The notes below the pieces were generated by a model. It saw only the letters and a list, made by a program, of their open reading frames with translations, was not told the DNA's origin and searched no databases. This document shows positions 30,957 to 62,600 of a stretch of 64,000 bases of DNA, in pieces. Positions within the stretch are counted from its first letter, which is position 1, and every line of letters begins with the position of its first letter. Origin of the DNA: Xanthobacter flavus (GTDB lineage: Bacteria; Pseudomonadota; Alphaproteobacteria; Rhizobiales; Xanthobacteraceae); assembly GCF_017875275.1 (NCBI RefSeq), contig NZ_JAGGML010000001.1, forward strand, positions 62,001 through 126,000, in the 5' to 3' direction. A program made the position numbers and the translations under genes.

Positions 30957-31267
30957 CGGGAGGCCGCTCCGAAGATGAGCGCGGCTTTTTTTAAGATGTC
31001 GCGCTCCATCCGCAGGCGCTCGTTCTCCCGCCTGAGCCGGGCGTTCTCCGCCGCAAGGTCGGCCGGCGACGGGCCCGCCGCCTGCAGGATCGGGCGCCGC
31101 GCCGGCCCCGTCGCCTGTGGTGCCAGATCTCTCACCCACCGCCGCAGAACCGTCTCGTGCAGCCCCAGCTCCTGCGCCACCTGCCCGGCGGAAAGACCGC
31201 TGGAGGTTACCCGCTCAACGGCCTCCCGCTTGAACGCCTCTGGAAACACCCGGCGCCGTGTGCCCAT
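30953..31267 (-). CDS. IS3-family transposase orfA
   Basis: 104-residue helix-turn-helix protein ([42 protein letters not shown]) with a leucine-zipper-like segment ([24 protein letters not shown]). The ATG at 31267 follows GGAGTG. The run of seven A within the ILKKA codons allows a -1 shift into orfB to make the OrfAB transposase. It is identical in protein sequence to the orfA of the second copy. Confidence 0.88.
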   Translation of the reverse strand: MGTRRRVFPEAFKREAVERVTSSGLSAGQVAQELGLHETVLRRWVRDLAPQATGPARRPILQAAGPSPADLAAENARLRRENERLRMERDILKKAALIFGAASR

Positions 31268-31329
31268 CGAACACTCCTCTGAAGCTCGCAAAAGCTAACA
31301 TGGGTGTCCACAAAAACGGGGGAGGATCA

Positions 31330-39122: not shown

Positions 39123-40162
39123 CACAGGCCCGCCCGTTCGAGATGGCAGGCGAGGTCCACCATGCGGCAGGCATAGCCCATCTCGTTGTCGTACCAGGCA
39201 TAGACCTTGAGCAGGGTGCCGTCGGTGACGAGGGTGGAGGGTCCGTCCACGATGGCGGACCTCGTGTCGCGAGCATAGTCCGCCGACACCAAAGGGCGCG
39301 GCTCGAAGCCGAGGATACCGTTGAGCGCACCCGCGGCGGCCTTGGCGAACAACGCGTTCACCTCGTCCGCCGTGGTCTCGCGGTTCAGCTCGAACACGCA
39401 GTCAGTGAGCGAGGCGTTGAGCACGGGGGCGCGCACCGCATGGCCGTTCAGCTTGCCCTTCAGCTCGGGATAGATGAGGGCGATGGCGGTGGCGCTGCCG
39501 GTGGTGGTGGGCTGTAGCGAGAGCATGGCCGAGCGGGCCCGGCGCAGGTCCTTGTGGGGCGCATCCACCACCACGTTGGTGTTGGTGGGATCGTGGATGG
39601 TGGTGATCTGGCCGTGGCGGATGCCGATGGCCTCGTGCACCACCTTCACCACCGGTGCGAGGCAGTTGGTGGTGCAGGAGGCGGCAGTGACGATGGGGTG
39701 CCTCTCGCGGTCATAGAGCTGCTCGTTAACCCCCACCACCACGTTGAGCACGGACGGGTCCTTCACCGGCGCGGCGACGATGACGCGCTTGGCGCCCCGC
39801 TTCAGGTGGCCTTCGAGCACCTGCGGCGTGAGGAACTTGCCGGTGGATTCCAGCACCACATCCACCCCGAGGTCGCCCCAGGGGATGTCTTCCGGCTTGG
39901 CATGGGACGAGAAGGACATGGCCTTCTCGCCGATGCGCACGCTGCCCTCATCGTGGGAGATGGGCGCGCGCCAGCGGCCCTGCACGCTGTCGAATTCCAG
40001 CAGGTGGGCGCACGCCTCGGCGCCGCCCTTGATCTCGTTGAGGTGGACAATGTCGAGCCGGTTGTTGCCACGCGGGTCGTTGTCCGGGCGGTGCGCCGCC
40101 CCCAGGGCCGCGCGCAGCGACAATCGTCCGATGCGGCCGAGGCCGTTGATCCCAACTCTCAT
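39122..40162 (-). CDS. gapdh: Glyceraldehyde-3-phosphate dehydrogenase of the ars operon
   Basis: 346 residues. The NAD-binding start [19 protein letters not shown] and the catalytic [16 protein letters not shown] with its nucleophilic Cys are intact, as are the substrate-binding [14 protein letters not shown] and the C-terminal [15 protein letters not shown]. In this operon it is expected to use arsenate in place of phosphate, giving 1-arseno-3-phosphoglycerate for ArsJ. It is distinct from the housekeeping enzyme, which is not in the window. Confidence 0.92.
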
Positions 40163-40214
40163 GGCAGCGTCATTCCCTGTGATCTTGAGATGGTGCGGCG
40201 TTGCCGCGGCGGCC

Positions 40215-41276
40215 TCAGGCCTTGGTATGATCGGCGACGTCCGTCACCTTCACGCCGCCGGCCTCGTACCAATCCTTGGAACGGTTCACGATCCACACGA
40301 CGGACAGCATCACCGGAACCTCGATGAGCACGCCCACCACGGTGGCGAGCGCAGCCCCGGACTTGAAGCCGAAAAGGCTGATGGCGGCGGCCACCGCCAG
40401 CTCGAAGAAATTGGAGGCGCCGATGAGGGCCGAAGGGCCGGCCACGCAATGGGCTTCACCGCTGATGCGGTTCAGCAGATAGGCGAGGCCCGAGTTGAAA
40501 TAGACCTGGATCAGGATCGGCACCGCCAGAAGAGCGATCACCAGCGGCTGGGCGAGGATCTGCTCGCCCTGGAAGGCGAACAGCAACACCAGGGTGGCAA
40601 GCAGCGCCACAAGGGAAAGGGGCTGGAGCACGCCGAGGAGGCGATCGAGCCCCCCCTGCCCCCCGCGCACCAGAATGCGTCCGCGCAGAAGCTGCGCCGC
40701 GATCACCGGCACGACGATGTAGAGCACCACCGACAGCAAGAGCGTGTCCCACGGCACGGTGATGGAGGAGAGCCCGAGCAGCAGTCCCACCACCGGCGCG
40801 AAGGCGACGATCATGATGGCATCGTTCAGCGCCACCTGGGACAGGGTGAAATGCGGCTCGCCCTTGGTAAGGTTCGACCAGACGAACACCATGGCCGTGC
40901 AGGGGGCCGCCGCCAGAAGGATGAGGCCGGCGATATAGCTGTCGATCTGGTCGGCTGGCAGATAGGGCCGGAACAGGTGGCCGATAAACAGCCAGCCGAG
41001 GAAGGCCATGGAGAACGGCTTCACTGCCCAGTTGACAAGCAGCGTCACCGAGATGCCGCGCCAGTGCCGACCGACCTCCTTGAGCGCGGCGAAGTCGATC
41101 TTCACCAGCATGGGCACGATCATCAGCCAGATGAGGAGCGCGACCGGCAGATTGACCCGCGCCACTTCCAGCCCCCCGATGGCCTGGAACACGGACGGCG
41201 CCAGCGCGCCGAGCGCGACGCCGGCGATGATGCACAGGAAGACCCAGAGCGTGAGGTAGCGTTCAAACACGGACAC
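40215..41276 (-). CDS. acr3: Arsenite efflux transporter Acr3
   Basis: 353 residues with about ten helices. Acr3 hallmarks: the N-terminal [20 protein letters not shown], the [18 protein letters not shown] segment with the conserved Cys essential for arsenite transport, and [18 protein letters not shown]. It exports arsenite using the proton gradient. The start is GTG 41276. It takes the arsenite produced by the ArsC proteins of the same operon. Confidence 0.95.
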
Positions 41277-41357
41277 GGCGTGGAATCTCCCAGGGCTACG
41301 ATCTGCGGCCGGCGGCGGCGACAGCGTGGGCGCGGTCTGTTTCAGGATGACGACGGC

Positions 41358-42245
41358 TCACGCCGCCTGCCCGGCAAGTGTAAGATCCGTCGCGCCTTCC
41401 ATCTTGCCGATCTCGCCGATGCGCTCTTTCAGCGACGCCAGATCGAGCTGCTCGAATGGCAGGTTGACGAAGGCGGAGACGCGCCCGGCAAGCCGGCGGT
41501 AGGTGGCAAGGAAGGCCGCCTTCTGCTCCGCCTCGCTTTCCTTCACCGCCAGAGGATCGGGTAGGCCCCAATGGGCCTGCAGCGGATGCCCGGGGAAAGC
41601 GGGGCAGATCTCGCCCGCGGCGGCGTCGCAGGTGGTAATGACGAAGTCCATCTGCGGTGCGTCCGGTTCGGCGAAGCCGTTCCAGCTCTTGGAGGCAAGG
41701 GGGGCGGTGTCGTAGCCGAGCGAGCCGAGCAGGTCGATCGCCATCGGATGCGGCTTCAGCTTCGGCCGGCTGCCCGCCGAGAACGCGCGGAAGCGGCCGC
41801 GGCCCTCCCGGTTGAGCAGCGCCTCGGCGATCAGCGAGCGGGCGGAGTTCGCCGAGCAGACGAGCAGCACATTGTAGACACGGTCGTTCGCGGCGGCAGG
41901 CCGGAGCTGAGGGAAGGCGGCGGCACGTGCTCCGCGTCCGGGAGAGACAGCGAAGCCCATCTCCGCCATCATTTGGGCCAGCACCGGACGGGCTGTCGTC
42001 AGGCTGGCGGCATAGATGATGGATCGCCCCTCGCGCCGCGACGTCACGAGACCCGCGCGCTCCAGCAAGCCGAGATGGACGGACATGGTGTTGTGCGGCA
42101 CGGCCAACAGGCGCGCGATGTCGCCTGCCGGTAGGCCATAGGGCACATAGCGCAACAGCAGGCGATAGGTTTCGAGACGCGTGCCCTGGGAGAGCGCATC
42201 GAAAATCCGGGTTGCGTCGTCTGCGTTCAACCGTGTCGCGTCCAT
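41358..42245 (-). CDS. arsR/arsC: ArsR-type regulator fused to thioredoxin-linked arsenate reductase (ArsR-ArsC)
   Basis: 295 residues. Residues 1-100 form an ArsR/SmtB winged helix (IFDALSQGTRLETYRLLLRYVPYGLPAGDIARLLAVPHNTMSVHLGLL). Residues 124-285 form a low-molecular-weight-phosphatase-type ArsC with P-loop CSANSARS (C130) and the two further redox cysteines in TTCDAAAGEICPAF. The regulator half contains no cysteine at all, so the usual ELCVCDL arsenite sensor is absent; sensing may be by another route, or the reductase half may participate. It follows pstS by 45 bases. Confidence 0.92.
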   Translation of the reverse strand: MDATRLNADDATRIFDALSQGTRLETYRLLLRYVPYGLPAGDIARLLAVPHNTMSVHLGLLERAGLVTSRREGRSIIYAASLTTARPVLAQMMAEMGFAVSPGRGARAAAFPQLRPAAANDRVYNVLLVCSANSARSLIAEALLNREGRGRFRAFSAGSRPKLKPHPMAIDLLGSLGYDTAPLASKSWNGFAEPDAPQMDFVITTCDAAAGEICPAFPGHPLQAHWGLPDPLAVKESEAEQKAAFLATYRRLAGRVSAFVNLPFEQLDLASLKERIGEIGKMEGATDLTLAGQAA

Positions 42246-42290
42246 CTCACCTCACCGAACAGATGGGTCTGTGCACGAGGGCCAGACCTG

Positions 42291-43319
42291 TCAGACCCCA
42301 CCTTTAAAGGTCTTCGCCCAATAATCCTTCACCTGCTGAACCAGCGCCGGCGGCAGGGGAACATAGCCAAGCTCCGAGGCGGCTTTTTCCCCGTCCCCGA
42401 GAGCAAACCTCCAGAATTCGAACGCCACCTGGCTGTTGGCCGGGACTTTCGGTTCCTTGTACATGAGCGCAAAGGTCGTCGCAGCGATCGGGTAAGCGTC
42501 GGGCGCAGCGGAATCGTTGATGACCACGAAGAAATCCCTCGCAGCGGTCCAATCAAAGCTCAATGCTGCAGCCTGAAACGATGCTGCGCTCGGCGCTATG
42601 AACTTGCCGGCGCGATTCTGCACCAGGCCGTAGGCGAGCTTCGCCTGCACGACGTAAGTGAACTCGACATAACCAATGGAATTCTTGACTCGCTTGACCT
42701 CGGTCGACACGCCCTCGTTGCCACGTGCGCCCGTCCCTACGGGCCAAGCCACGGAGCTGCCTTCACCCACCTGCTGCTTCCACTCGGGGCTCGCTTTGGC
42801 GAGATAAGACACCCAGTTGAACGTGGTGCCAGATCCATCGGCACGATGCACCACCACGATCTTCGCGTCGGGCAATTTCAGATCGGGATTTAGGGCCTTG
42901 ATGGCGGGATCGGACCAGGTGGCGACCTTGCCCAGATAGATGTCGGCCAAAAGGGCTCCGGTGAACCGGATCTGGCCAGGGCCCACGCCGTCCACATTCA
43001 ACACCGGTGCGACGCCGCCGAACACGATAGGGAACTGGCCGAGGCCGTATTTCTCCAATTCGTCGGGCTTCAGGGGCTTGTCGGAGGCTCCGAAATCGGC
43101 GGCGCCATCCTTGATGCGATTGATGCCGGCGGATGAGCCCACCGACTGGTAGCCGACAAGGTGGCCCGTTCGCTCACGGAACAATTCTGCCCACTCCCAA
43201 ATGATGGGATAGGCGAAGGTGGAGCCGGCACCCCGCACCTCGCCCGCATGAGCGGCAGGCGTGAGAAAGGATATGGCCGCAATCGCAGTGGCGGTGGTCA
43301 AGGCAAAAATGCGGTTCAC
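42291..43319 (-). CDS. pstS: Phosphate ABC transporter substrate-binding protein PstS
   Basis: 342 residues. A signal peptide (MNRIFALTTATAIAAISFLTPAAHA) is followed by the PstS domain: GAGSTFAYPIIWEWAELF, VGSSAGINRIKDGAADFGASDKPL, RADGSGTTFNWVSYL, and the C-terminal FWRFALGDGEKAASELGYVPLP. GTG 43319 follows GGGAGG. Specific phosphate binding helps cells in the presence of arsenate, and pstS genes are frequent in arsenic islands. It is the first gene of the operon; pstCAB are not in the window. Confidence 0.92.
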   Translation of the reverse strand: MNRIFALTTATAIAAISFLTPAAHAGEVRGAGSTFAYPIIWEWAELFRERTGHLVGYQSVGSSAGINRIKDGAADFGASDKPLKPDELEKYGLGQFPIVFGGVAPVLNVDGVGPGQIRFTGALLADIYLGKVATWSDPAIKALNPDLKLPDAKIVVVHRADGSGTTFNWVSYLAKASPEWKQQVGEGSSVAWPVGTGARGNEGVSTEVKRVKNSIGYVEFTYVVQAKLAYGLVQNRAGKFIAPSAASFQAAALSFDWTAARDFFVVINDSAAPDAYPIAATTFALMYKEPKVPANSQVAFEFWRFALGDGEKAASELGYVPLPPALVQQVKDYWAKTFKGGV

Positions 43320-43414
43320 GGCTGCCTCCCTGTTCCATCGACAACCGCTCCAAGGCTTACCCTATCAGCGTCGTTATGTCGATTGGCGTAGACAGATCGC
43401 TATATTATGCTTAT

Positions 43415-43428
43415 GTCACTTCCGTGAC
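43415..43428. promoter_or_regulatory. Candidate operator upstream of the pstS-ars operon
   Basis: GTCACTTCCGTGAC is a perfect GTCAC/GTGAC inverted repeat about 96 bases upstream of pstS, next to an AT-rich TATATTATG stretch that could hold the promoter. It may be the binding site of the ArsR-ArsC fusion or of a phosphate regulator. Confidence 0.4.
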
Positions 43429-43489
43429 GCACCTGAGAGGCACACCTTCCGCAGCGACAGCGCAATTGTCGATGCGTCCATGCTAGCAG

Positions 43490-43800
43490 AAATAATTTAA
43501 AAGGCATGGCGGACTGCCTCAAGGTACAGTTTCGCACATGGTGCATTTTTCACTCGTAGAATTTATATATTCGACCGATTCAGGATGTTATTATCCCGCG
43601 AGTCCGTCTCTATATACTGTCGCCTAGTATCATATTGTACCTGAATCCATCCCATTGTCGAACTTTGTATTGTACTTATTCCACCAAGAATGGAATATAT
43701 AATTTTAAGAACGCCTAATATTACAATCAACATTGACGGAAATTCTATATATACACCAAATGTCATCATTTAGTTACATAAATTACTAGAGCCGCTTATG
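43490..43800. other. AT-rich intergenic segment without a supported gene
   Basis: A stretch of about 300 bases is sharply AT-richer than anything around it (TATATA, AATTTA and ATAATTT runs). A 68-codon reading frame on the minus strand (43769-43563) has no ribosome site and no recognisable motif and is not called. The segment separates divergent pstS and the broken pstS-like gene and looks like foreign DNA or a decayed insert. Confidence 0.5.
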
Positions 43801-43849
43801 CTGGGCGCGAGCTCCAAGGCCCTGGCGACATCGTCCAGGAAACGCATCC

Positions 43850-44469
43850 ATGAAGATCACCACTCTCGCGAGCGCCTTCGCGCTACTTGCCGCCGGCGCG
43901 GCGCTCAACGGCGCGGCGGCCCAGGCTCTGGTCAAGGCTGACGGTCGTCTACGGCGTTCCCCGTGACCGAGGCCATGGCAGAGGAGTTCCAGAAGCAGAA
44001 CAAGGACATCAAGGTCACTGTCGGCATCGGCGGCAGGGGCGGCGGCTTCAAGAAGTTCTGCCGCGGCGAGACCGACATCTCCAACGCCTCGCGGCCGATC
44101 ACCGCGAGCGAGCAGAAGGCCTGCAAGGAAGCCGGCATCGAATATATCGAATTGCCCGTGGCGCTCGACGCTCTCACTGTCATCGTCCACCCGTCCAATA
44201 CATGGGCCAGCGAGATGACCGTTGCGGAGCTGAAGAAGATCTGGGAGCCCGAGGCCCAAGGCAAGATCACCAATTGGAAGTAAGTCCGCGACAGCTTCCC
44301 CGATCGTCCGCTGGCGCTCTACGGAGCAGGTGTCGATTCCGGCACTTACGACTATTTCACCGCCGCCATCGTCGGCAAGGAACACTCCAGCCGCGGCGGC
44401 TTCACCGCTTCGGAGGACGACAACGTGCTCGTGCAGGGCGTCGCCGGTGACCAGAACGCGCTCGGCTTC
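43850..44469 (+). pseudogene. Second PstS-like phosphate-binding protein, frameshifted, with a stop and truncated by an IS
   Basis: Begins with a signal peptide (MKITTLASAFALLAAGAALNGAAAQA) and VKADG, then loses frame near 43940. It resumes at 43963 as [45 protein letters not shown], the SphX/PstS-like family. A TAA at 44281-44283 replaces a likely CAA after ITNWK; the frame then reads [28 protein letters not shown] up to NALGF, where the IS begins. Three independent lesions show that it is dead. Confidence 0.85.
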
Positions 44470-44510
44470 GACACCCATGTTAGCTTTTGCGAGCTTCAGA
44501 GGAGTGTTCG

Positions 44511-44825
44511 ATGGGCACACGGCGCCGGGTGTTTCCAGAGGCGTTCAAGCGGGAGGCCGTTGAGCGGGTAACCTCCAGCGGTCTTTCCGCCGGGCAGGTG
44601 GCGCAGGAGCTGGGGCTGCACGAGACGGTTCTGCGGCGGTGGGTGAGAGATCTGGCACCACAGGCGACGGGGCCGGCGCGGCGCCCGATCCTGCAGGCGG
44701 CGGGCCCGTCGCCGGCCGACCTTGCGGCGGAGAACGCCCGGCTCAGGCGGGAGAACGAGCGCCTGCGGATGGAGCGCGACATCTTAAAAAAAGCCGCGCT
44801 CATCTTCGGAGCGGCCTCCCGATGA
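44511..44825 (+). CDS. IS3-family transposase orfA (copy 2)
   Basis: 104 residues identical to the orfA of copy 1: helix-turn-helix followed by a leucine-zipper-like segment. ATG 44511 has GGAGTG upstream. It cannot support transposition alone because the paired orfB is broken and both ends of the element are lost. Confidence 0.85.
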
Positions 44826-45386
44826 CGTTCGGGTTCGTCGATGAGCATCGCGCTGTGTGGCCGGTTCGGGTGATGTGCGCGGCCCTCGGGCTGTCGGCCA
44901 GCGGCTATTATGCCTGGCGCGCCCGGCCGGAGAGCTTGCGTGCGCAGACCAACCGGGCACTCACCGACGACATCCGGCTGATCCATGCGCAGAGCGGCGG
45001 GACCTATGGCGCGCCCCGGATCCATGCGGTCCTGAGAGGGCACGGTCGGCGCGTGGGCCGGTCCCGGATCGAGCGGCTCATGCGCCGCGCCGGCATCCGG
45101 GGCCTGGCCGCCGTGCCAAGGCGCACGCGGACGCCCACAGCCGCCATTCCTAACCGATCGCTCCCAACCGGCTCGCCCGCAACTTCATGACCCAGGCCCC
45201 GAACCAGGTCTGGCTGGCGGACCTCACTTACATCCCCACAGGCGAAGGCTGGCTCACCCTTGCCGGCGTGCTCGACATGCACACCCGCAAGCTGGTCGGC
45301 TGGTCCATGCGCGAGACATTGCACACACAGATCGCGCTGGAAGCCCTCGCCATGGCCATCGAGCGCCAGCGGCCGGCACCCGGCCT
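44822..45386 (+). pseudogene. IS3-family transposase orfB (copy 2), frameshifted and 3'-truncated
   Basis: Starts at ATG 44822, overlapping orfA. One A is missing relative to copy 1 in the stretch ACGCGGACG-CCCACAG (about 45130), shifting the frame so that it ends at 45190; the original frame reopens at MTQAPNQVWLADLTYI (45187) and runs out of the element. The same TAA as in copy 1 is still present. The third catalytic residue region is lost with the 3' end. Confidence 0.85.
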
Positions 45387-45744
45387 CGATGCGGCCGAGG
45401 CAGAGATCAAGCGAATTGACCGGGAGCTCGACAAGTTGATGAAGCTCATCCTCGCGTCCGACAGCGACGACGCCCCCACCCCGATGATGAAGCACATGAA
45501 GGAGCTGGAGGCTCGCCAGAAGGAGCTAAAAGCGTTCCTGCAGGACGCCCAGGAGCCGCCGCCCCTCCTGCATCCAAACATGGCGCATCACAACCACGCC
45601 CAGGTGGATGAGCTGTATGCGGCGCTTCAGGAGGTTTCGGAGGAAAAGCGGATGACGGCGGCCGACCTGATTTGCTCGCCGGTGAAGGAGATCATCCTGA
45701 CGCCGGCAGAAGGCGAGCTTCGGATCGACGTGCGAAGTGGCTGA
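45387..45744 (+). pseudogene. C-terminal remnant of a large serine recombinase, fused in frame to IS orfB
   Basis: From the IS breakpoint the frame reads DAAEAEIKRIDRELDKLMKLIL, then MKHMKELEARQKELKAFLQ and a C-terminal TAADLICSPVKEIILTPAEGELRIDV. This is the coiled-coil and terminal part of serine-type site-specific recombinases (phage integrase or resolvase family). The catalytic and zinc-ribbon domains are gone. It probably marks an older integrated element at this locus. Confidence 0.7.
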
Positions 45745-47276: not shown

Positions 47277-47497
47277 TCCCGCCCTGCCCTGCTCTGCTCC
47301 GGCTTCGTCCAGTCCTTATCCAGGAAGATAGCAGCCTCCAGGATCGCTGCGAGGAACGCGGACAGCGCCCGATACTCGGGAGAGCTGATAGGCGCGATGG
47401 CCATCAGCTGAACAACGCTACGCCGGGCCGCTGCGACGGTCTGGATGAACTCCTCCGTCTGGGTCGTTGACCAATGACGCTTTGTGCGGCGAGTCAT
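47273..47497 (-). CDS. Small hypothetical protein of the nuclease operon
   Basis: 74 residues (MTRRTKRHWSTTQTEEFIQTVAAARRSVVQLM...), mostly helical, not recognised. The ATG overlaps the stop of the gene upstream, and its own stop overlaps the ATG of the thermonuclease gene (both ATGA overlaps), which supports it being translated. Confidence 0.65.
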   Translation of the reverse strand: MTRRTKRHWSTTQTEEFIQTVAAARRSVVQLMAIAPISSPEYRALSAFLAAILEAAIFLDKDWTKPEQSRAGRE

Positions 47498-47703
47498 GAT
47501 CCGGACGCCGCCCCACCGCGCCGGAAGCCGGCCGACACCAACACCATGAGCCGGGACATCTCATGCTCGAGATAGGCCTGTCCGACCAGCAGGGCGCGGA
47601 TGGTTGCCCGAGGATCCCCGTCGCAGGCCGCTAAGGCCTCGTCTATCTCGGCATCGCTGACGTCAAAAGGGGCTCGCTCGGCGGGCTGGGGCTCGCTCGA
47701 CAT
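47494..47703 (-). CDS. Small acidic protein, first gene of the SOS-box operon
   Basis: 69 residues: MSSEPQPAERAPFDVSDAEIDEALAACDGDPRATIRALLVGQAYLEHEMSRLM.... It is not recognised as a known family. The segment DEALAACDGDPRATIRALLVGQAYLE recurs in many alphaproteobacterial phage and island proteins. ATG 47703 has GGAG 8 bases upstream. A close but C-terminally altered paralogue lies at 48562-48762. The start is 41 bases from the LexA-type box. Confidence 0.7.
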   Translation of the reverse strand: MSSEPQPAERAPFDVSDAEIDEALAACDGDPRATIRALLVGQAYLEHEMSRLMVLVSAGFRRGGAASGS

Positions 47704-47777
47704 GGTCATCTCCGGCACTGATCTGCGCCTATGGATTCCATGAGAACGAAAAGAGAACAAGCCACGAGATATAGGGG
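47556..47777. repeat. Direct repeat unit A: small gene plus divergent SOS-box promoter
   Basis: About 220 bases, most of the small acidic gene and the whole divergent promoter with its GAAC-N7-GAAC box and GATATAGGG element, recur at 48617-48836 in the same orientation with scattered substitutions. Confidence 0.85.
47744..47758. promoter_or_regulatory. LexA-type SOS box between the nuclease operon and the SRAP gene
   Basis: GAACGAAAAGAGAAC is an exact GAAC-N7-GAAC match. It is 41 bases from the small-gene start on the minus strand and 57 bases from the SRAP start on the plus strand. A GATATAGG element follows at about 47769 and could be the -10 of the rightward promoter. Confidence 0.7.
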
Positions 47778-47814: not shown

Positions 47815-48534
47815 ATGTGCAACCTCTACAGCCACACCTCGAACGTCCAAGCGATCATCGACCTGACGCGCGCCACGCGGAGCCTCGTCGGCAATCTGGC
47901 TCCGCAGCCGGGGATTTTCCCGGACTATGAGGCGCCCATCGTTAAGACGGGTGCCGACGGCGCACGCGAGATAGCCATGGCGCGTTGGGGCATGCCGTCT
48001 TCGCAACTGGCGCTGATCGAGGCGGCAAAGAAGCGCGCGGCGAAGCTGGAGGCCAAGGGGCAGGCCGTCGATTTCAAGGAGCTGCTGCGCCTAGAGCCGG
48101 ACAGCGGCACCACGAACATACGCAACACTTCGAGCAGGCACTGGCAGCGCTGGCTGGCGCCCGAGAACCGTTGCCTCGTGCCGTTCACCAGCTTCAGCGA
48201 ATTCAACAAGGCCGCCGGGGGGGACGTGTGGTTCGCCTTCTCGGAGGAAAGGCCCCTCGCCTTCTTCGCCGGGATCTGGACGGCCGGATGGACCTGCGTC
48301 CGCAAGATGAAGACCGGCGTGGAGACCGTAGACCTGTTCGGCTTCCTTACCACCGAGCCAAGCGAACCCGTCGCCAGCATCCATCCGAAGGCGATGCCCG
48401 TCATCCTGACGGAGCCGACAGAGATCGACGCCTGGATGCACGCACCGTGGGAAGACGCGAAGGCGCTCCAACGACCGTTGCCGGCCGGTGCGCTGCAGAT
48501 CCTGGCGCGAGGAATTAAAAAGGATGGCGCTTAG
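47815..48534 (+). CDS. SRAP domain protein (YedK/HMCES-like, SOS response-associated peptidase)
   Basis: 239 residues. The active-site Cys is residue 2 (MCNLYSHTSN); ARWGMPSS, NIRNTSSRHW, NRCLVPFTSFSEF and the HPKAMPVILTEP segment with the catalytic His are conserved. SRAP proteins form DNA-protein crosslinks with abasic sites in single-stranded DNA and protect them from error-prone repair. The LexA-type box directly upstream fits the family name. It is framed by the two repeat units. Confidence 0.93.
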   Translation: MCNLYSHTSNVQAIIDLTRATRSLVGNLAPQPGIFPDYEAPIVKTGADGAREIAMARWGMPSSQLALIEAAKKRAAKLEAKGQAVDFKELLRLEPDSGTTNIRNTSSRHWQRWLAPENRCLVPFTSFSEFNKAAGGDVWFAFSEERPLAFFAGIWTAGWTCVRKMKTGVETVDLFGFLTTEPSEPVASIHPKAMPVILTEPTEIDAWMHAPWEDAKALQRPLPAGALQILARGIKKDGA

Positions 48535-48561: not shown

Positions 48562-48762
48562 TCAGCCTCGACATGCGCCCCGGAGAGAGCCGAGGGTGCA
48601 TCCGCCTAAACGCAGAACATCCTGCTCAAGGTAAGCTTGCCCGACCAGGAGAGCGCGGATCGTCGCCCGGGGATCCCCATCGCAGGCCTCCAAGGCCTCG
48701 TTTATCTCCGCACCGCTGACGTCAAAAGGGGTTCGCTCGGCGGGCTGCGGCTCGCTGGACAT
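48562..48762 (-). CDS. Paralogue of the small acidic SOS-operon protein, altered C-terminus
   Basis: 66 residues (MSSEPQPAERTPFDVSGAEINEALEACDGDPRATIRALLVGQAYLEQDVLRL...). The first about 50 residues match the protein at 47494-47703; the last 15 are unrelated and arise where the duplication ends, so this may be a decaying copy. It is divergent from the TIR-STAND gene and shares the SOS box at 48803. Confidence 0.5.
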   Translation of the reverse strand: MSSEPQPAERTPFDVSGAEINEALEACDGDPRATIRALLVGQAYLEQDVLRLGGCTLGSLRGACRG

Positions 48763-48836
48763 GGTCGTCTCCGGCGCTGATCTGCTGTTATGGATCCTAT
48801 GAGAACAAAAGGAGAACCGGCCACGAGATATAGGGG
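48617..48836. repeat. Direct repeat unit B: duplicated small gene and SOS-box promoter, facing the TIR-STAND gene
   Basis: Counterpart of 47556-47777. The start codon context, the SOS box and GATATAGGGGG element are retained, while the sequence beyond about 48836 no longer matches. Confidence 0.85.
48803..48817. promoter_or_regulatory. LexA-type SOS box upstream of the TIR-STAND gene
   Basis: GAACAAAAGGAGAAC is an exact GAAC-N7-GAAC match, at the same place in repeat unit B as the box at 47744 in unit A. It is 41 bases from the small paralogue and about 130 bases from the TTG start of the TIR-STAND gene. Confidence 0.65.
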
Positions 48837-48945
48837 GTCAGGGCAAGCTGATAGGGTCCAAACTCCTGGCGTGGCACCAGGCACTAGGCCATGGGCCAGG
48901 CAATGTCGTAGGATCAGCTCGCGGCCACGCCTGGGGGAGGTAGAT

Positions 48946-51462
48946 TTGCGAGCATTTCTTTCTCATTCGTCCTTAGACAAGGGCTTCGTGGAGGCTGTCG
49001 CTGAAACCATGCGGGCGGGCACGTATGAGTTAGATTCGATCACATTCGATGCGGGGCTTGTGAACTCCGCAGCAATTCAGGCGGCATTGAAGCGGTGCGA
49101 TCTATTTTGCCTTTTTCTGTCACGCTCATCCGTACGATCCTCCTATGTTGACTTCGAGGTATTGCTTGGAACCGAATTTCTCGCGCGCGGCTCCATTTCT
49201 CGCTTTATAGCAATTTGCCTCGATGATGAGGCTTTCACTCTGGCGAGCGATAATATTAAATTCTACAATATAGTTCGCAAATCTCTCACGCCAGAAGCAT
49301 CCGCCCGCCTTATAATGGGGCAACTAGTTTCCGCGTCCAATAAGCTTGAACATTTCACACACCCTTTTGTTGGACGGACCGACGAACTTAAGAATCTCGA
49401 AGCACAGGCCTCCGACTACCAACGACCTCCACTAAAATGCCTTTATATATCTGGCAATTCTGGAACTGGCCGGCGGTCTCTCGCAGCTAAATTTTACGAA
49501 AATCATTTTACACATGTGGGACGCATATTTCCTGAAGTCCATATATCTAAATATGATGGCGCATATGAACTATATTTCAACATTCTAAGGGAGCTCAGAC
49601 CTACAATTTCAGTCAGCGATCTGAGAACAAGAATGACGAGCATTTCAATTTCGAGCGCCGATCAAATAATGACCATTGCCGCTCATCTATTAAATTCTCT
49701 ACTACCGAGCAATGAAGCGGCATTTTTGATTGATGAAGGCGGCGTCCTTACACAGGCGGGCGCACTGACACCTGAAATGACGATGCTAATCAAGCACCTC
49801 GAAGCTCGCCCACATCCACCAGCCACATTCATTTCCCCGCGAATGGTGCCCAAGCGCTATCGTACACAATTCCCGGACGTCGCCTTTCTACCCATCACGG
49901 CTATGGAATGGAGCGACGCGTTTAGATTAACATCAACCCTTCTTAAACGGAAATCCGTCGAAATTGACGAAAATTCACTAAACCAAATTATTTCCCTTAC
50001 AGACGGGCACCCATTCAATATCTATCGAATAGTTGAAGATATTCATGAAGTTGGCGTCAAAGCGTTTTTGGCAAACCCCTCAAATTATATCGAATGGAAA
50101 CATCTCCAGACATCCGAGTATATTGAAAAAATTGATCTTTCTGATGTCGATTGCTTCGTTTTAACAATTTTGAAGAACATTCCGGTATTAGATTTTGATA
50201 CCATTTCGGCGGCTCTGAAAACTGCTCCGGATGTTTTGTCGGACTGCCTGCAGAAGCTGACGCTTCTACATGTCGTAGATAGCGAAGGCGATCGCTTTCG
50301 CCTATCTCCCGCCTTAAGGACAGCGATTGAACGAGACGCGCGCATCAAGATGCCGCCCGACCTGCAAGTGCAAGCCACCTCAGTTGTGGCTCACTCGCTG
50401 AGCCTTCGGATAGAAGACGGAACCGCGCCAGTTTCGCTCGTCGATTCGGCTGTCCTCGCCAGCGTGGAAAGCGGAGAGGCTTTAACCGAATTGGCTGCCG
50501 CATTCTTGCTGCCCTCTCACTACGTCTGGCTAGCGAAACTCCGCTACGATCAGCGCGATTGGCTAGAGAGTATCCGATTCGGCCTGGAAGCTCTCAAGGG
50601 CGAAGCACGCCTCTCAACAAATGGACTGATCTCCGCTTGCCGTTCTGTTTGTCTTGCTGCGGCGCGAACGGGAAACGACCCTGTATTCACTCGCGCGATC
50701 GCCAAACTGCAGGCACGATCCAAGGATCACTGGATACGCAGCAATGTAAAATATCTTCAGGGATTTCAGCTTCGCATGAGGGGGCTGATTCCAGCCGCCC
50801 ACGATTTATTTCAAGAGGCGTATGATTTATATGAGGGAAATATATCAGCAATACGAGAGCTGGCAGCGATAGCTCTTTATAGAGGAGATCTAGAACAGGC
50901 TGAGACGTTAGCTCGCAAAGCATACGGATTTTCGCAAAACAACGTCTATATGATAGACATGTTGCTAACAATTCTCATAAGGAAGTCAAATTCAAAGACT
51001 ATGTCCAACGAGATGTCCGACCTTTTTTCAAAGCTCGAGCGAGTCGGTGAAGAAAACGGCCGTTCATTTTACACGACGCGACGGGCCGAATTTGAGCATT
51101 TGAGAGGCGACAACAATGCCGCAGCATCACTGATTTCGATCGCCGCATCGAAAACTCCTACGATATTTGAAGTTAGGCGACTGCAGGCGGAGATTTTTTT
51201 GAAGGCTGGAAATAAAAATAAAGCATACGAAGCCCTTCAAGCCATGGACAAGATGGTTCACGGGAACAGTATATCTGAAGGCCGATCAAATTACAGATTT
51301 TTTCTGGAGACAAAGGCACACTACCTTACTGATATCGGACAGTTTTCTGAAGCGAAGGATTTGTTCGAGGATACGTCATATTTTTCAAAGGCTGAACGAG
51401 ATAGGGAAATTAAAAATATTGAAGTAGCGCAGTCGTTTTACGACATGAGACGGAGACCATAA
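48946..51462 (+). CDS. TIR-STAND NTPase-TPR protein, probable anti-phage defence sensor
   Basis: 838 residues. Residues 1-140 are a TIR domain (RAFLSHSSLDKGFVEAVAETM; CDLFCLFLSRSSVRSSYVDFEVL, with E71 at the position of the NADase glutamate). Residues 155-480 are a STAND-like ATPase: FVGRTDELKNLE, a P-loop at 170-178 (GNSGTGRRS, with RR in place of KT/KS), and Walker B AAFLIDE (258-264). The C-terminal 270 residues are helical TPR-like repeats. TTG 48946 is chosen because GGGGGAGG lies 5 bases upstream and the protein then begins at the TIR strand; an ATG at 48790 is in the duplicated promoter region. The gene is much AT-richer than its surroundings, so it was acquired. Expected action: TPR senses an invader, STAND assembles, TIR depletes NAD. 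Confidence 0.78.
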   Translation: MRAFLSHSSLDKGFVEAVAETMRAGTYELDSITFDAGLVNSAAIQAALKRCDLFCLFLSRSSVRSSYVDFEVLLGTEFLARGSISRFIAICLDDEAFTLASDNIKFYNIVRKSLTPEASARLIMGQLVSASNKLEHFTHPFVGRTDELKNLEAQASDYQRPPLKCLYISGNSGTGRRSLAAKFYENHFTHVGRIFPEVHISKYDGAYELYFNILRELRPTISVSDLRTRMTSISISSADQIMTIAAHLLNSLLPSNEAAFLIDEGGVLTQAGALTPEMTMLIKHLEARPHPPATFISPRMVPKRYRTQFPDVAFLPITAMEWSDAFRLTSTLLKRKSVEIDENSLNQIISLTDGHPFNIYRIVEDIHEVGVKAFLANPSNYIEWKHLQTSEYIEKIDLSDVDCFVLTILKNIPVLDFDTISAALKTAPDVLSDCLQKLTLLHVVDSEGDRFRLSPALRTAIERDARIKMPPDLQVQATSVVAHSLSLRIEDGTAPVSLVDSAVLASVESGEALTELAAAFLLPSHYVWLAKLRYDQRDWLESIRFGLEALKGEARLSTNGLISACRSVCLAAARTGNDPVFTRAIAKLQARSKDHWIRSNVKYLQGFQLRMRGLIPAAHDLFQEAYDLYEGNISAIRELAAIALYRGDLEQAETLARKAYGFSQNNVYMIDMLLTILIRKSNSKTMSNEMSDLFSKLERVGEENGRSFYTTRRAEFEHLRGDNNAAASLISIAASKTPTIFEVRRLQAEIFLKAGNKNKAYEALQAMDKMVHGNSISEGRSNYRFFLETKAHYLTDIGQFSEAKDLFEDTSYFSKAERDREIKNIEVAQSFYDMRRRP

Positions 51463-52054: not shown

Positions 52055-52349
52055 CGGTCGCCTCCTTGAGCTTGCGCGCCTGTTCGTCGAGCTGGGATTG
52101 AAGGGTGGAGGCGTGGGCGCCGGCGGCGGTGGCCGCAGCGGCGTCGGCCTTCGAGACCGCCGCTTGGCCGCTCTCCCGCAGCCACGCCTCCCGAGCGTCG
52201 CCGCCATAGTCCATCGCCACCCAGCCGGCGGCGGCGATGGCATAGACGAGGGCGATCTTCTCCCCGAGGTAGCGCCGGGCCGCGAGATAGGCGGCCACGG
52301 CGCCGATGGCATAGAGCCACCAAGGGATGATGGAGAGAAGCCACTGCAT
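51969..52349 (-). CDS. i-spanin (Rz-like)
   Basis: 126 residues: N-terminal membrane segments (MQWLLSIIPWWLYAIGAVAAYLAARRYLG...ALVYAIAAAGWVAM) followed by a periplasmic coiled coil (ASTLQSQLDEQARKLKEATDALESLAG). ATG 52349 overlaps the endolysin stop (TGATG). It partners the overlapping lipoprotein gene. Confidence 0.7.
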   Translation of the reverse strand: MQWLLSIIPWWLYAIGAVAAYLAARRYLGEKIALVYAIAAAGWVAMDYGGDAREAWLRESGQAAVSKADAAAATAAGAHASTLQSQLDEQARKLKEATDALESLAGRPGCSADDVLDRLPGWGGRP

Positions 52350-53215
52350 CAGGCCGCTGCCTCTGCCGCCCGCGCAGCTTCTCCGCCGAGCCACGTCGGC
52401 CACCACCGGGGGAGCTTCCCTGCCGCCTTGGCGCGGGAATAGGCGGCATAGGCGAGGCCTCCGAGAATCACGAGGCCGGCAATGAGCCCGAGCACGGTCC
52501 CGGCCTGGATGCGGTCAATGCCGCCCTGCGCCTGGTCGATCACCTCCAGCGCCTTGTCGGCGGTGAAGCCGCCGGCGGGCACGGACGCCGCGGCGGTGCC
52601 CTGGATGACGCCGGACTGGGAAAGCGGCTGCTCCTCTACCGGAGCGTCCGGCACGACGGTGCCGGTGGGGACGCCCGCGCCGGCGGCGATGGGCTCCACG
52701 ACCCGGGCCACGGCCTTGCGGGTGAACAGGGCGCCTTCCGCCTCGCGACGCCGTTCCAGCCCGCGCAGGGTCTGCCCCTTGGACTTGACCCACTGCATGA
52801 GGCCAGGGCGCACCGCGCCATAGTCGCCGCGGTTGAGGGCCTTGACGAAGCTGGCGCGGCCGATCGCGCCGGTATTGAAGTCGAAGGACACGAGCGCCGC
52901 GAACTGGTTGTCCGTCAGCGGCACCTTCACCGTCCGGGCCACGCGGTCCTCGCACTCGTCGAGGTCCGCGTCGAGGATCGCGCACGCCTCCGGCTCGGTG
53001 ATGCGCAGGCCCTTCCTGATCTTGAGCGGGTGCTGGGCATCGTCCGTGTGGCCGTAGCCGATGGTCAGCGTGCCCTTGGGCTTGCTACCGTCCCATTCGC
53101 GGTAGCCATAAGGGACGCCCTTCACCGGGCGCAGGTCGTCGTAGACGAAGGGGACGAAGCTCTCGTAGGACTTCACGAGCGCCAGCCCCGCCGCGTTGAT
53201 GTCGCGTCGTGCCAT
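52349..53215 (-). CDS. Phage endolysin, GH24 lysozyme with C-terminal membrane anchor
   Basis: 288 residues. The muramidase domain (1-155) has the catalytic Glu in LVKSYESFVPFVYDD and the LTIGYGHT segment. The C-terminal 130 residues are a linker and a transmembrane helix (TVLGLIAGLVILGGLAYAAYSRAK) near the end, so the enzyme is membrane-tethered rather than released by a signal peptide. It is the first gene of the lysis cassette. Confidence 0.88.
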   Translation of the reverse strand: MARRDINAAGLALVKSYESFVPFVYDDLRPVKGVPYGYREWDGSKPKGTLTIGYGHTDDAQHPLKIRKGLRITEPEACAILDADLDECEDRVARTVKVPLTDNQFAALVSFDFNTGAIGRASFVKALNRGDYGAVRPGLMQWVKSKGQTLRGLERRREAEGALFTRKAVARVVEPIAAGAGVPTGTVVPDAPVEEQPLSQSGVIQGTAAASVPAGGFTADKALEVIDQAQGGIDRIQAGTVLGLIAGLVILGGLAYAAYSRAKAAGKLPRWWPTWLGGEAARAAEAAA

Positions 53216-56626: not shown

Positions 56627-59600
56627 TTACTGCGCGCCAACCTTGAGGGTGCGCTTGCGCGGCTTCATGCCGAGCGCATCGCCTAGCCCATCTTCGAGGT
56701 TGTCGATTGCTCGTCTGAGGAACCAGAAGTTCTGGCCCGGCAGGAAGGAGCGGCGGAGCGCCGCGAGGTCTGCGCGGTGAGCGTAAGGCGCCTGTCCTCG
56801 AGGACGGGCCATGTCGCCAATGAAGCGACCTCCCGAAAAGACAGCGTCCTGCACCTTGCCGGCGACGGGGCCAAGAAGTGTCCCCATCTCGTTGACGTTG
56901 GAGTAGCGCGATGTGTATTCGCCGGTGAGAGCAGACAGCCCTACCCGACCGGACGTGGCTTTTTCCGCTATCGTGTTGGCTTGATCCAGCCACCCCAGAA
57001 GCCCCGACGTGCTCAGGCCCTCCACCACCAGCTTCACCGGATCGGTCGGAATCTCCCGCCCCTGCACCGCCTGCCGCGCGGCATAGCTCATTGCGCCCAG
57101 CCCAATCATGGCGGCGAAACCCATGATGGCGCGGGCATCGCGCTGTTGGATGCCAGCCAGAGTCACCGTCTGCGCCGTGGCGGTCATGAAGCTTTGGAAC
57201 TGGAAAACCAGCCGGCCCACCTCATTGCCCTGCGACCAGAACGGCCGCTCCATGCCTGGCCGGACGATGGAGCGCTCCACCCCGCGGCCCACCGCGATGC
57301 TCATGGCCTCGGCGGCGCCCTGGTCCTGCCAGGCGCTGGTGTTCGTGAGCCAGAGTCCATCGAACCGCTCGCCGCCATTGTCGGCGCTGAATTCCTTCCA
57401 GATGCGAGCCGCCATGGGCTCGGAAATGCCGAGGTCGGCGAGCATCTCCCGCTGGCGCCCCGACAGCCGGCCATCCGTCGCCGCCTGTGCCGCCTTGAGC
57501 GTCTTGCTCATCACCGTGTAGCCGACGACGCGCTCCCCCATGTCGGTCCACTGCGGCAGCATGGTAAGAGCCATGAACTTGTTGACGCTCGCGCCCACCG
57601 CGCGCTCCAGCGGCGAGCCCCGGCCGTAATCGTCGAGAACATCCGAGAATGCCGCCATGCGGGCGTTCAGCTCCAGGTCGAGCCCCACGCCCATCAGCTT
57701 CAGCTCCTCCTTGGCACGCCCCCCAACCTCCCGGCCGATGGAGGTGACGAAGGGCGCCCAGCCATTGCCCAGCAGCTCGATCATTCCGTGGCGCACCAGC
57801 GGCGTGGCGAGGTCGGACATGGCCGAGATCACAACCGAGCCGAGAGAGGTGAGGATGTTGAAGCCGCGGGCGACGCGCGCCGCCTGATGGCCGACACCCT
57901 GCGGGTTGTCCGGCATCCCGAACAACCCGCGCTGCCTCTCCAGCAGCTTCATGAGCGTCTCGATGTCGTCGTCGGCCCGCTTCTTGATGCGCTCGTTCGC
58001 CGCCTCGATCTCCTTCGCCGTTGGCTCCCGGCCGGTCCTGGCCTGATAGTCCGAGGCGAACTGGTCCATCTGCCGCTGGGCTTCGTCCACGATCTCCCTG
58101 AACACCAGGGAGCCGTCGGCGCTGATGTGCTTCAGGCCTCCCATGTCCGTGACGGAGCCGAAGCGCTGGACGATGGCCATGTCCATCTCCATCTGCTCAA
58201 TCATCACGCGGGCGACGTGCTCGATGTCCGTCTCCAGCCATTTCGCCTTGGTGTCGAACGGCATGGCGAAGGTGCGCCCCTGGAAGGTCCTCCCCAGTTC
58301 CTCCTTGCCCGAGCGAATGGCCGCGCCGGTTGGGGCCTGATCGTCATAGGGGAAGCGTCCCGCAGGCGTGCCCACCACCCGCTGCCAGGTTTCCTCCGCG
58401 CGGGCGCGCAGTTCGTCCGGGGTCAGGTCGGTCCGCGCCTTCAGGATGGCCTCCGCGGCATCATCCACGGCGCTATCAGCGGTCTTGAGCCGCGGCGCAT
58501 CGGCGGGCGCGCCCTCGGTCGCGGCCTCCCTCTTTTCCAGCGCGCGCTTGGCCCCCTTCGAGCTGTTGCCGTTCCAGGCCCCCACCACCTCTTCCATCTT
58601 GGTCCGCAAGGCGGCGGCCTCCGCGTCATGGTTCGCCATGGCGGCTTCCAGCATCTGCCGGCGCACGGACAGGTCGATGGCGCGATCCGAGAGCGTCTCC
58701 ATCCGGTCCTTGTTGGCGGTGAGCGCACGGAGCGCCTCCTCCGCTTTCGTCTCGGCACGTCCCATGCGCCGACGCACGCCGGCAAGCGCCACCATCGCGT
58801 CGCGCACCGCGGCCCGCGCCGAGGTGCGTTCCCCGAGAGCCCCTTCCAACGCCTGCCGCGCCTCCTCCGCGAGCGCGCCGCCGGTCATGCCTTCCGAGCG
58901 CAGGTCCTCCTCGCCGGAGAGTCGGCGCTCCAGGTCCTCCAGAGTCTGAGGCCGGCCCTCCTCGCCGCGCAGGAAGGTGGCGACGTCATCCAGCGTGCGC
59001 AGCGTGGTGCCGCGCTCGGCCGCCATCTGCTGGATCTCCTGAGCAACCCGTGATTGCCCGGCATATTCCGCATCGAGCTGGCGCGCCTCCCACCAGCCAG
59101 GCTCTTCGCCCCGCGCCGCGGCCGCGATCCAGTCTTCGACCTGCTGCGGCGTCGGACGCTCCGGGAGCAGCCCGCCGGCCTCCTCCGCTATGGCTTCGCC
59201 AAGCTCGTCCAGGGAGCGGCCCTGTTTTGTGACGACGCCGCGCGGCAGGTCATGCCCTTTCAGGATGCCTTCGGGGTCGGCGACACCTCCCCGCCGAGAG
59301 ACCCACCGCAGGAAGGAGGGGGGCTCATAGCTCCGCTTGCGCCCGATCACGATCTCCGCAGCAAGGCGAACACCAGAGAGCACCGCATCCCGCTCGAACC
59401 GCGCCGCCCGCGCGATATCCGTCTGGGTCCGGGGCTTGGCGAGGCGGCTCATCTCCCGCGCCTGGGCGCGAAGGTCATCGATCTCCGCCCGTGCCTCGGG
59501 GCTGTTGAGGTCCGCTTTCACCGCGCCGACGAACTCGTCGAGCGAGGTGGCCTGCTCCGCCGCGCCCGCGGCCTGTCCCTCGAGCTGATCCGCGCGCCGG

Positions 59601-62600
59601 CCGGCCCGCCGGGCCTCCATGCCCCGCTCGCTGGTGCGCGCCGCCAGCTCCTGCTCCTGCCGGTCCACGGTGTCCATGCGGCTCTGGAGCTTGCGCGCGC
59701 GCACGTCCATCTCGTCCCGCTGCTGGGCAAGCTCCTGCATGCGGGACTGAAGGCGGGCCTTCACCTGCTGGTCGGCCGCGTAGAAGCCGGCGGTGTCCTG
59801 CACGAACGCCTGCTTCCGCTTTCCGACCAGGCGGGTGTTGAACAGGTGCGTGGCATAGGAGAGCGTGCCCACCGGGCTCGGCTTCTCGTTCCAGATGCCG
59901 ATCTCCACCGCCTTGTCGGCCAGCGCGTCGGCGATCTTGCGGAACTCGCCGGCCGCTTTCGCGACCTCAGGGATGGCGTGCTTGTCGCCCATGTTGGCGG
60001 CGTGGAACACCTCGGACTTGAAGTCGGCAAAGTCGAGATGCTGCTGGTCAGGGAACATCTGCCGCACGTTGTCGCCGAACCGCTTGTGCCGGCCGAAACG
60101 ATATTCGCTGTAGAGGTCCTCCAGCGTGCGGGTGAAGCCGGCAAATTTCGCCCGGGCGAGGCGCCTCACATCATCGAGGTTGCCGCGCAGGCCGATGGCC
60201 TCATCCGCGGCGGTGGGAATGCCCTCGGCGTTCTTAGCGTAGGAGAGGCGCCCGTCGCCGATCCATTCCGCGGCGCGCCGGGTGGCGGCGATGGGCGATG
60301 TCTGCACGAAGGCGATGGGCGAGCCGTACATGGGCGTCTTCCCCGCCACCTCCGCGGCGCCGAGGGAGGACTTCAGCCGGTTGCCCTCCTCCCACCGGTA
60401 TGCGGCGCCGCCAGAGGCACCGAGCCCGCCGACGCTGTCCGGACGCTCTTCCGCGGCCAGCATCCGGTCCATGACGCCGCGAATCTCATCCGGGATCGGC
60501 TCGCCGAGGTCGCTCAAGCTCTTGTAGATGGCGGTGAGCCACGCCTTGAACTGGTCGAAGGCCCGCTGGAGCGCCGAGGACGGGGCCTTGCCGTCCCGCA
60601 GGTATTGCTCGAATCCCTCCGCCCACTTCTCATGCTCCGCCCGGCCGATCTTGGAGGCGTCGTCCACGCCCAGCCAGGAGAGCACCTGATCGAGGTCCTC
60701 CTTCATGGCGGGGCTCACCTCGGCGTCCCGGATCAGCTCGGAAAGCCAGAGGTGGGAGGACTCGTGCATGAAGGTGGACTGGTCCCGGCCCTTGAACATC
60801 TCGATCAGAGCGCGGTTGCTCTCCATCGTGATGGCACCGCGGGGCACGCCCTCGCCGGGCTGGAAGACCGAGAAGGCGTGGGGAGGCAGATTCTTGAAGG
60901 CGGCCACCACTTCGGATACATTACGAGGCGTTGCGCTGGCAGGCCGCGCTGACGGGTCGCTTTGCTGGGCTTTGCCCACAGACGCCGAAATAGCCTGCCG
61001 CCCTTCCTCCTTCGGACTCGGCGCAAGGTCGAAGCCCTCCATGTGATAGAGGCGGCTTCCATCCTTGGGAAATTTCTTGATCACCAGCCGGGCCGTGAAA
61101 TCGCGTCCGTCCAGGATGATATGGACAACACCGTAGCTGTAGTCCGGAAGGCTTCCGTTGTAGATCACCGAGCTCTGGATGATATCCGGCAGGTTCTGGA
61201 TGAGCCGTCTCTTGATATCGTTGGTGAAACCGGACAAGACCTTCTTCGTCACGTCGCGACTGATGCCGATGGCCTGACCCGTGGTCGCCGTATAGGTCCC
61301 CCGAACGGACATCAGGTCTTGCAAGGCCTCGTGTGGCGTGCGAGCCGGAAGATCGTTCAGATAGAGCGGCGGGACCGGCGTGTTGGGATCGATCTCGATG
61401 GGCAACTGTCGGGATCCCGTGTTCTTTTCCGACTGGAACATCCGCGCCATCGCCTCGGGCGTCCGGCCCTCCGGCGGCACGCTGGCGAGGGCATGCTCGA
61501 ACGCCTGGATGCGCGTGCCCGTGGCGCCGGGATCGGCCGCCTCCTCCGCGCGCAGGCCTGCCAGCTCCTCCTCCATACGCCGGGGCGAATAGAAGGCCCC
61601 GTCCACCTTCCGGTGCCACTGGACCGCTTCAGGGTTCCGCTTCGCCCAGAAGGCATGACCGTCGGGCAGGAGGGTGCCGGAGGGCACCATGGCCGTGCCC
61701 ATCTCCTTCTCCACCACGTCATAGAGCTTGCTCGCGTAGCCCTTGCCGCGCTCGCGGGACGGCACGTTCGTCCAATCGACCTCCCAGCGGCCATCATCCC
61801 GGCGCACCAGCTCCACACGGCCAAGAATGCCCTCGATACCCTCCGGCAGGCGCTGCCCCTCCGAGGGCTTCGGAAACAGGTCGAAGGCCACCACGTCGTG
61901 CCCACCGGCGCCCCGGCGCACCGAGCCGCGCACCACCATGTCGTCTCCGACCGGGATTTCCTTCCATCGCGCCGCCTGGGCCAGCACATCGTCGCCCAGC
62001 GCCTCGGGGGCCTCGCCCGCCCGTACATCGATCCCCTCCTTCCGATAGAGGTCGAAAGCGCTCTCGCCGAGGCCGCGCCGCTCCGCGCGTGCCGCATAGT
62101 GTGCCTCCAAGATGGCTGCATTCGCTGCGGCTTCCTCCTCCGCCAGTCCGGCTTCCACAAGCTGGCGTCGCACATCGTCGAAGACCGGGCGCGGACCCAC
62201 CTCGATGTTCTGGGCCAGGCGGTCAAATTCCGCCTTGGAGAGCTGGGAGGCGGACCGGCCGAGCACTTCGCCAAGGATGGTCGAACCGACACTGAAGAGG
62301 CCCCCGACGCCACCACCGAACGCCGCGCCCACTGCCGTGCTGGAGAGATAATCCCCGGGCGTGCGGGCGACGTGGGTGCCCTGCATGATCGCTTCGTTTG
62401 CAAAGCCTCCCGCCGCACCCGCCAGGGCGCCAGCTCCGATGCTCTTCGCGAGCCCAGCTCCGAGCCTGCCGACCCGGTAGACCGCGCCGGCGGGGAGAAA
62501 GGTGGTGGGGTTTGCAAAGCCGAGCGGCAAGCCGAGACCGATTGCCCAGTAGGGATGCTGGGCCTTGATCATCTCGTTCTCTTTCTCGTCCTGAAAATTC

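Follow-up and report, generated by a model that had tools for sequence, protein, structure and literature searches.

A TIR-NLR gene beside a two-sided SOS-type promoter at one end of a Xanthobacter flavus prophage

The 64-kb stretch of Xanthobacter flavus DNA analysed here (the window; positions 62,001 to 126,000 of contig NZ_JAGGML010000001.1) carries a single gene of the TIR-NLR defence family, which sits at the edge of a genuine prophage and faces a small divergent gene across a promoter region containing an exact LexA-type box. We consider it probable that this gene encodes an anti-phage sensor carried as prophage-end cargo, beside a transplanted two-sided SOS-type promoter at a site for defence cargo. 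The domain order, the family, the conserved glutamate, the prophage, the box, the small gene and the varied cargo are read from the sequence, while the SOS input is deduced from position. The protein adds one more member to an established defence family; what is new is its setting. The genome is a single contig of 5.35 Mb, positions are those of the window, continued rightward beyond it where stated, and labels beginning with L denote extracted loci.

In the mechanism that we propose, the C-terminal repeats would detect a product of the phage, oligomerisation would be driven by the STAND ATPase and the TIR domain would degrade nicotinamide adenine dinucleotide (NAD), stopping the infected cell before phage release in an abortive outcome, as the family would lead one to expect for each of these steps. 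Host LexA would occupy the box and control the small gene, and the SRAP gene where one is present; the TIR gene, on the other side of the transplanted promoter, may gain SOS-dependent transcription, and the prophage site would receive different defence genes beside the SOS-type promoter. Should the defence cargo of these prophages prove tied to the SOS switch, immune readiness would track DNA damage, and the joint presence of small gene, box and SRAP could serve to find more defence systems in alphaproteobacterial prophages. The case also carries a caution, namely that a LexA box upstream of a gene may be that of its divergent neighbour.

The TIR-NLR protein and its gene

A reading made from the DNA letters and their translations (the sequence-only reading) had described a TIR-STAND-TPR protein laid out like the anti-phage sensors, and database searches agree with it: the PADLOC TIR-NLR model covers residues 2-826 (E 3.4e-35), and the solved chain 9m0n_A aligns over residues 1-787 (E 1.8e-36). 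The putative NADase glutamate of that reading also stands, Glu71 being invariant in 14 of 14 aligned proteins, and we take this residue to be the catalytic one of a TIR NADase. The match to AAA_16 at residues 140-217 scores 25.1 bits, under the Pfam cut-off of 32.6; despite this, the full-length PADLOC TIR-NLR match and a fold match to 6mfv_A identify a central STAND NTPase. C-terminal TPR repeats are likewise recognised from a sub-threshold Pfam match (TPR_19, 20.2 bits, below the cut-off of 25), from helix pairs in the predicted model and from TPR proteins among its fold matches. The model itself, predicted from 14 sequences, has a mean predicted local distance difference test score (pLDDT) of 84.8 and a predicted template modelling score (pTM) of 0.74. 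Its top Foldseek match is the solved STAND-TPR protein 6mfv_A (E 1.8e-10) and the next is the plant NLR RPP1 (E 6.2e-08), with low query-normalised TM-scores of 0.20 and 0.31, respectively; 9m0n is absent among the 50 Foldseek matches listed.

Among relatives of the protein, a Pleomorphomonas protein is 65% identical, and a plasmid search returned four matching records, the best of them, from Zymomonas, at 41.5% over the full length. There is no match to the gene in 50,697 phage records, and at E 1e-20 just one of 198 family genomes matches, which is the gene's own. This last observation would suit a degraded or inactive passenger gene, as would the P-loop (49453-49479, residues 170-178), in which arginine replaces the usual lysine so that the canonical P-loop lysine is absent. 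We regard such a passenger as very improbable, since the frame is open for 838 codons, the catalytic glutamate is retained and the P-loop arginine is common to the relatives and to 9m0n_A. Both R176 and R177 are invariant in four of four rows of the relatives' alignment, and GRRS recurs in 9m0n_A; the arginine is therefore a trait of the group, and we do not take it as excluding TIR-NLR membership.

The open frame 48790-51462 given for the gene in the sequence-only reading exists, but 48790 is merely its first ATG and is ruled out as the start, which would make the box at 48803-48817 coding and which the relatives do not share, as they begin at the TTG position. That TTG, at 48946, is likely the start of the TIR gene: a GGGGGAGG stretch resembling a ribosome-binding site ends 5 nt ahead of it, and relatives L099, L100 and L102-L104 have an ATG start at the equivalent residue. 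The residue number 71 given earlier to the glutamate fits a start here as well. The gene is AT-rich, as had been noted, at 48% G+C content (GC) against 62-72% in most 1-kb blocks of the region.

The prophage

Matches to PHROGs for endolysin, tail, major head, terminase large subunit and integrase are spread over 52.3-103.2 kb (continued window numbering), so that structural, packaging, lysis and integration genes are all present; the TIR gene lies at one end of the prophage. IMG/VR predicts a virus of 52,759 bp that begins near 48799 and has the TIR gene as its first gene. Its length puts its end near where the integrase gene begins, leaving SRAP, box 1 (Table 1) and the integrase just beyond it, and we infer that the prediction is short at both ends. 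A search for attachment sites by shared words gave none above chance; a 14-nt word occurs at both 45809 and 103108, a length that chance alone often produces in this test.

The small gene and the two-sided promoter

Box 1 separates SRAP, read rightward, from small gene copy 1, read leftward; box 2 stands likewise between the TIR gene and small gene copy 2 (Table 1). The sequence-only reading had taken the promoter of the TIR gene as duplicated from that of SRAP. The similarity is there (48617-48836 matches 47556-47777, on the SRAP side, at 85.6%), but a fresh tandem duplication is ruled out, as copy 2, on the TIR side, differs from copy 1 (85.7% identity) about as much as from the copy of another viral contig (84.3%); its identity to the copy of this genome's second prophage is 80.8%. 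Given these identities and the end of the homology near 48836, the promoter adjoining the TIR gene seems to be a transplanted, two-sided one that, by its conservation, belongs to the small gene overlooked in the earlier reading.

The small gene was found in 125 of 296 family genomes, and was sampled at 30 loci from these 125, at four viral loci and at the two prophage sites of this genome. A box lies about 30-110 nt away in 33 of the 35 distinct copies, whereas SRAP stands directly opposite in five of the 35 and 658 nt off in one more. In distant copies the conserved part is the small-gene side, with TTGATTCCATGA before the box and AAG after it; the rightward ATATAGGGG element is confined to closer copies, whether SRAP is there or not. 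The conserved job of the box would accordingly be, as we infer from these comparisons, control of the small gene, and of SRAP where present, as a host LexA operator.

The LexA-type box

The exact GAAC-N7-GAAC box reported upstream of the TIR gene was located at 48803-48817. The window holds three such matches against 1.39 expected, a number attained by 13 of 100 shuffles, and the genome 98 against 57 for a reversed control pattern, because of which one exact match is weak evidence taken singly; at the genome's box density, about 0.3% of starts would, by arithmetic, have a box at most 150 nt away. The box gains weight because the same pattern lies upstream of lexA, the uvrA/ssb pair (two boxes), an imuA-like gene and a YifB-family gene in this genome, and because it is the other-strand equivalent of the alphaproteobacterial LexA motif GTTC-N7-GTTC given in the part of PMC3323433 consulted. 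The imuA-like gene scores 39 bits, below the NCBIfam cut-off of 150. These genes come from 22 box loci read out of the 98 (L003, L004 and 20 picked mainly for A-rich spacers), among which several boxes lie inside open reading frames (ORFs) or upstream of unnamed genes; an RmuC-like identity for one boxed gene was dropped, with no NCBIfam match.

A narrower form, GAACRAAARGNGAAC, defined after the sites had been seen, has five exact sites in the 5.35-Mb genome, each within or next to one of two predicted prophages. Four are near the TIR prophage, at the SRAP box, at the TIR box, upstream of the major head gene and over the integrase start; the fifth, in prophage 2 at 635 kb, precedes SRAP. The boxes before the major head gene and at the integrase start hint at prophage-wide control by one regulator. 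With all five sites so placed, they might be operators of a phage regulator, for instance the prophage's own XRE-type repressor, for which a repressor-like gene was recognised by eye (L063:6590-7309), and control would then follow prophage induction and not host LexA. This we hold to be quite improbable, as the same half-sites stand upstream of host lexA, uvrA/ssb and the imuA-like gene, and boxed copies of the small gene, which may or may not lie in prophages, are widespread in the family.

As separate observations, the box ahead of the major head gene lies 130 nt from it (L062:8107-8121, genome 134107-134121), the box at genome 163545-163559 spans the GTG start of the serine integrase gene, and the protein of L063:6590-7309 has a LexA-like C-terminal half, again assigned by eye.

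Is the TIR gene under SOS control?

The sequence-only reading had placed the TIR gene under LexA and SOS control. The LexA-type box and the prophage setting of that reading are supported; the box, however, is conserved with the small gene (33/35) and not with the TIR homologues (1/16). From position and comparison of sequences, we put the chance that the TIR gene itself answers to SOS at slightly short of even.

Upstream regions of 16 homologues were compared, L113 being left out. An exact box occurs in one of them, with about 0.1 expected by arithmetic from the box density of this genome. The boxed homologue is a Bradyrhizobium huanghuaihaiense TIR-NLR of 23% identity, with GAACATAAAAGGAAC 146 nt before the aligned start (L108:4855-4869) and no small gene nearby; it is suggestive, but a single case. 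Among 265 Bradyrhizobium-type genomes, four have matches to this boxed TIR-NLR, of which one is the same record and the other three are distant proteins without boxes. The frame of the L108 protein, it may be added, stops early at 744 amino acids and is followed by a 156-amino-acid ORF.

That LexA directly represses the TIR gene, so that DNA damage would induce it and prime the lysogen against phages, is a reading that we rate at nearly even. It would account for an exact box 128 nt upstream with a spacer of the A-rich class of the genome's prophage boxes, for a promoter block retained to 48836 together with its rightward ATATAGGGG end, and for the Bradyrhizobium huanghuaihaiense gene, boxed in an unrelated promoter with no small gene by it; the scarcity of boxes among the homologues speaks against it, and the small gene already accounts for the box. 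Several points weigh against an SOS input to the TIR gene and so against that part of our preferred explanation. The 15 unboxed homologues of the 16 include the 65%-identical Pleomorphomonas relative and the Zymomonas plasmid relative; the conserved promoter element is the leftward one, which fits the small gene; a scan of both strands with an Escherichia coli-type consensus gave no sigma-70-like promoter in the interval from box to TIR gene; and the distance from box to start is 128 nt for TIR against 56 for SRAP.

The homologues without a box would suit a box that serves the small gene only, with the TIR gene kept at a low constant level by its own unseen promoter, as a constitutive sensor. 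To this may be added that distant copies conserve the small-gene side, and that in E. coli the TIR-NLR of a P4-type satellite was functional under its native promoter, SOS and LexA going unmentioned in the portion of PMC9122126 consulted. Retention of the rightward promoter half in copy 2 and in the closer copies, whatever gene stands on the right, argues against it, and we give constitutive expression a tentative standing, somewhat below even. For the explanation preferred here, cargo at a prophage end beside a transplanted SOS-type promoter, the other places at which this promoter is found bear on the matter.

Cargo beside other cassettes

SRAP matches occur in 93 of 296 family genomes and at 17 viral loci; 58 places were inspected, or 57 distinct ones, L122 and L168 being a repeat. 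A box within 260 nt accompanies SRAP at 9/57, the small gene at 6/57 and both at 5/57. At four of these five cassettes of small gene, box and SRAP there is AT-rich cargo on the right (Table 1). The three-gene operon of the congener consists of a DUF676 esterase with ABC-3C CTD9, a middle component matching MC5/LmuC (E 1.4e-07) and LmuB (E 9.5e-40). Content of GC after SRAP is lower at the five cassettes than at 49 other SRAP loci (p 0.024; three places with less than 1,500 nt on the right were dropped). These findings suggest, on sequence comparison, that defence genes are carried as cargo at a prophage site linked to SOS.

Other places give a mixed picture. At a sixth, L125, with box and SRAP, just 351 nt lie to the left, and an opposite-strand AT-rich ATPase resembles AriA/PtuA proteins; boxed SRAP places L173-L175, in bacterial genomes, have no comparable cargo. 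Viral SRAP places without the cassette, L126 and L137, likewise have AT-rich neighbours, and L133, an SRAP place also without the cassette, has a DUF4365 gene that matches a PADLOC candidate model. Counting against the cargo site are the cassette L123, with nothing AT-rich on its right, the comparison with 14 other viral SRAP loci, in which the GC drop has p 0.093 in a weak test, and the small number, five, of cassettes on which the claim is based. As the GC test is unclear against viral loci, and places with and without cargo are mixed, we treat the cargo site as a lead, with three recognisable defence systems at five cassettes, and not as an established hotspot.

A broader reading would have a family of prophages of the Xanthobacteraceae type dock interchangeable anti-phage systems (TIR-NLR, dCTP deaminase, Lamassu-type) at a two-sided SOS promoter that is itself portable, so that the defences of a lysogen would rise on SOS from DNA damage, prophage induction or a rival phage; in this general form we think it rather unlikely.

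Comparison with known systems

TIR-NLR is a defence system at a P4 hotspot, functional under its native promoter and effective on P2-like phages (Rousset et al. 2022, PMC9122126, in the part available). The satellite system and that of the window are both single genes for TIR, STAND NTPase and TPR at a phage or satellite defence site; the latter differs in belonging to an alphaproteobacterial serine-integrase prophage and in its neighbours, a LexA-type box and a divergent small gene, and the available portion of PMC9122126 has no occurrence of SOS or LexA. The P2/P4 hotspots, as described there, share with our site varied defence cargo at one place, but the site described here is marked by SRAP and the SOS-type promoter, at five cassettes. 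The solved chain 9m0n_A / 9umd ('Tetratricopeptide repeat protein', 824 amino acids) has the GRRS P-loop and aligns over 1-787, though at low identity; a literature search found no paper naming 9M0N. With the alphaproteobacterial SOS regulon the region shares the GAAC-N7-GAAC direct repeat found upstream of lexA and repair genes, while its small-gene and defence-cargo neighbours are different. AbpAB (PMC10732053, in the part available) is also a defence system tied to host DNA damage, but there damage is reported as the activating trigger and not as transcription control, and the genes are unrelated. Literature searches on SOS- or LexA-linked defence and on SRAP with prophage and LexA, whose scope took in few subscription papers, returned nothing describing the present arrangement and no paper about those small-gene or defence-cargo neighbours.

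Other features of the region

Table 1. Coordinates of the TIR-NLR gene, its surroundings and the cassettes compared with it
Feature	Position	Strand	Description
TIR-NLR gene	48946..51462	+	838 aa, TTG start; PADLOC TIR-NLR E 3.4e-35; 9m0n_A E 1.8e-36
TIR domain with Glu71	48955..49230 (residues 4-95)	+	Pfam TIR_2 35 bits, cut-off 28
STAND ATPase region	49363..50130 (~residues 140-395, end approximate)	+	P-loop GNSGTGRRS; fold match 6mfv_A
TPR-like C-terminal helical repeats	50728..51459 (~residues 595-838)	+	helix pairs in predicted model; TPR fold matches
LexA-type box 2, GAACAAAAGGAGAAC	48803..48817	+	128 nt upstream of TIR start TTG 48946
LexA-type box 1, GAACGAAAAGAGAAC	47744..47758	+	56 nt upstream of SRAP
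Promoter block copy 2	48617..48836	.	homologous to other small-gene promoters; homology with most relatives stops near 48836
Small gene copy 2	48562..48762	-	66 aa, divergent from TIR gene; weak UBA-like Pfam score, below cut-off
Small gene copy 1	47494..47703	-	69 aa, divergent from SRAP
SRAP gene	47815..48534	+	239 aa; Pfam SRAP E 3.4e-18
Phage endolysin	52349..53215	-	past TIR gene; Pfam Phage_lysozyme; PHROG endolysin E 1.8e-37
Serine integrase gene	L063:17554-19161		GTG start overlapped by narrow-form box, genome 163545-163559
Cassette, window			TIR-NLR cargo
Cassette L122, second prophage of this genome	~635.4-638 kb		AT-rich 529-aa dCTP-deaminase-type gene; PADLOC dCTPase E 1.7e-157
Cassette L170, congener	L170:56-3659	-	three-gene operon, Lamassu-like or ABC-3C type
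Cassette L121			unknown 211-aa gene, 40% GC
Cassette L123			nothing AT-rich on right

The prophage region is flanked by inverted partner copies, 39447-43430 and 43749-44468 having counterparts 84-85% identical at 120007-124000 and 118960-119684 (continued numbering). An insertion sequence-like element at 44470-45390 has an inverted copy, with 98.8% identity, at 30388-31308, and is adjoined by a C-terminal fragment, at about 45290-45744, that by eye resembles a serine recombinase. Within the window, 56627-62998 encodes a phage protein of 2123 amino acids, in which an LPD3 domain scores 34 bits against a cut-off of 27.

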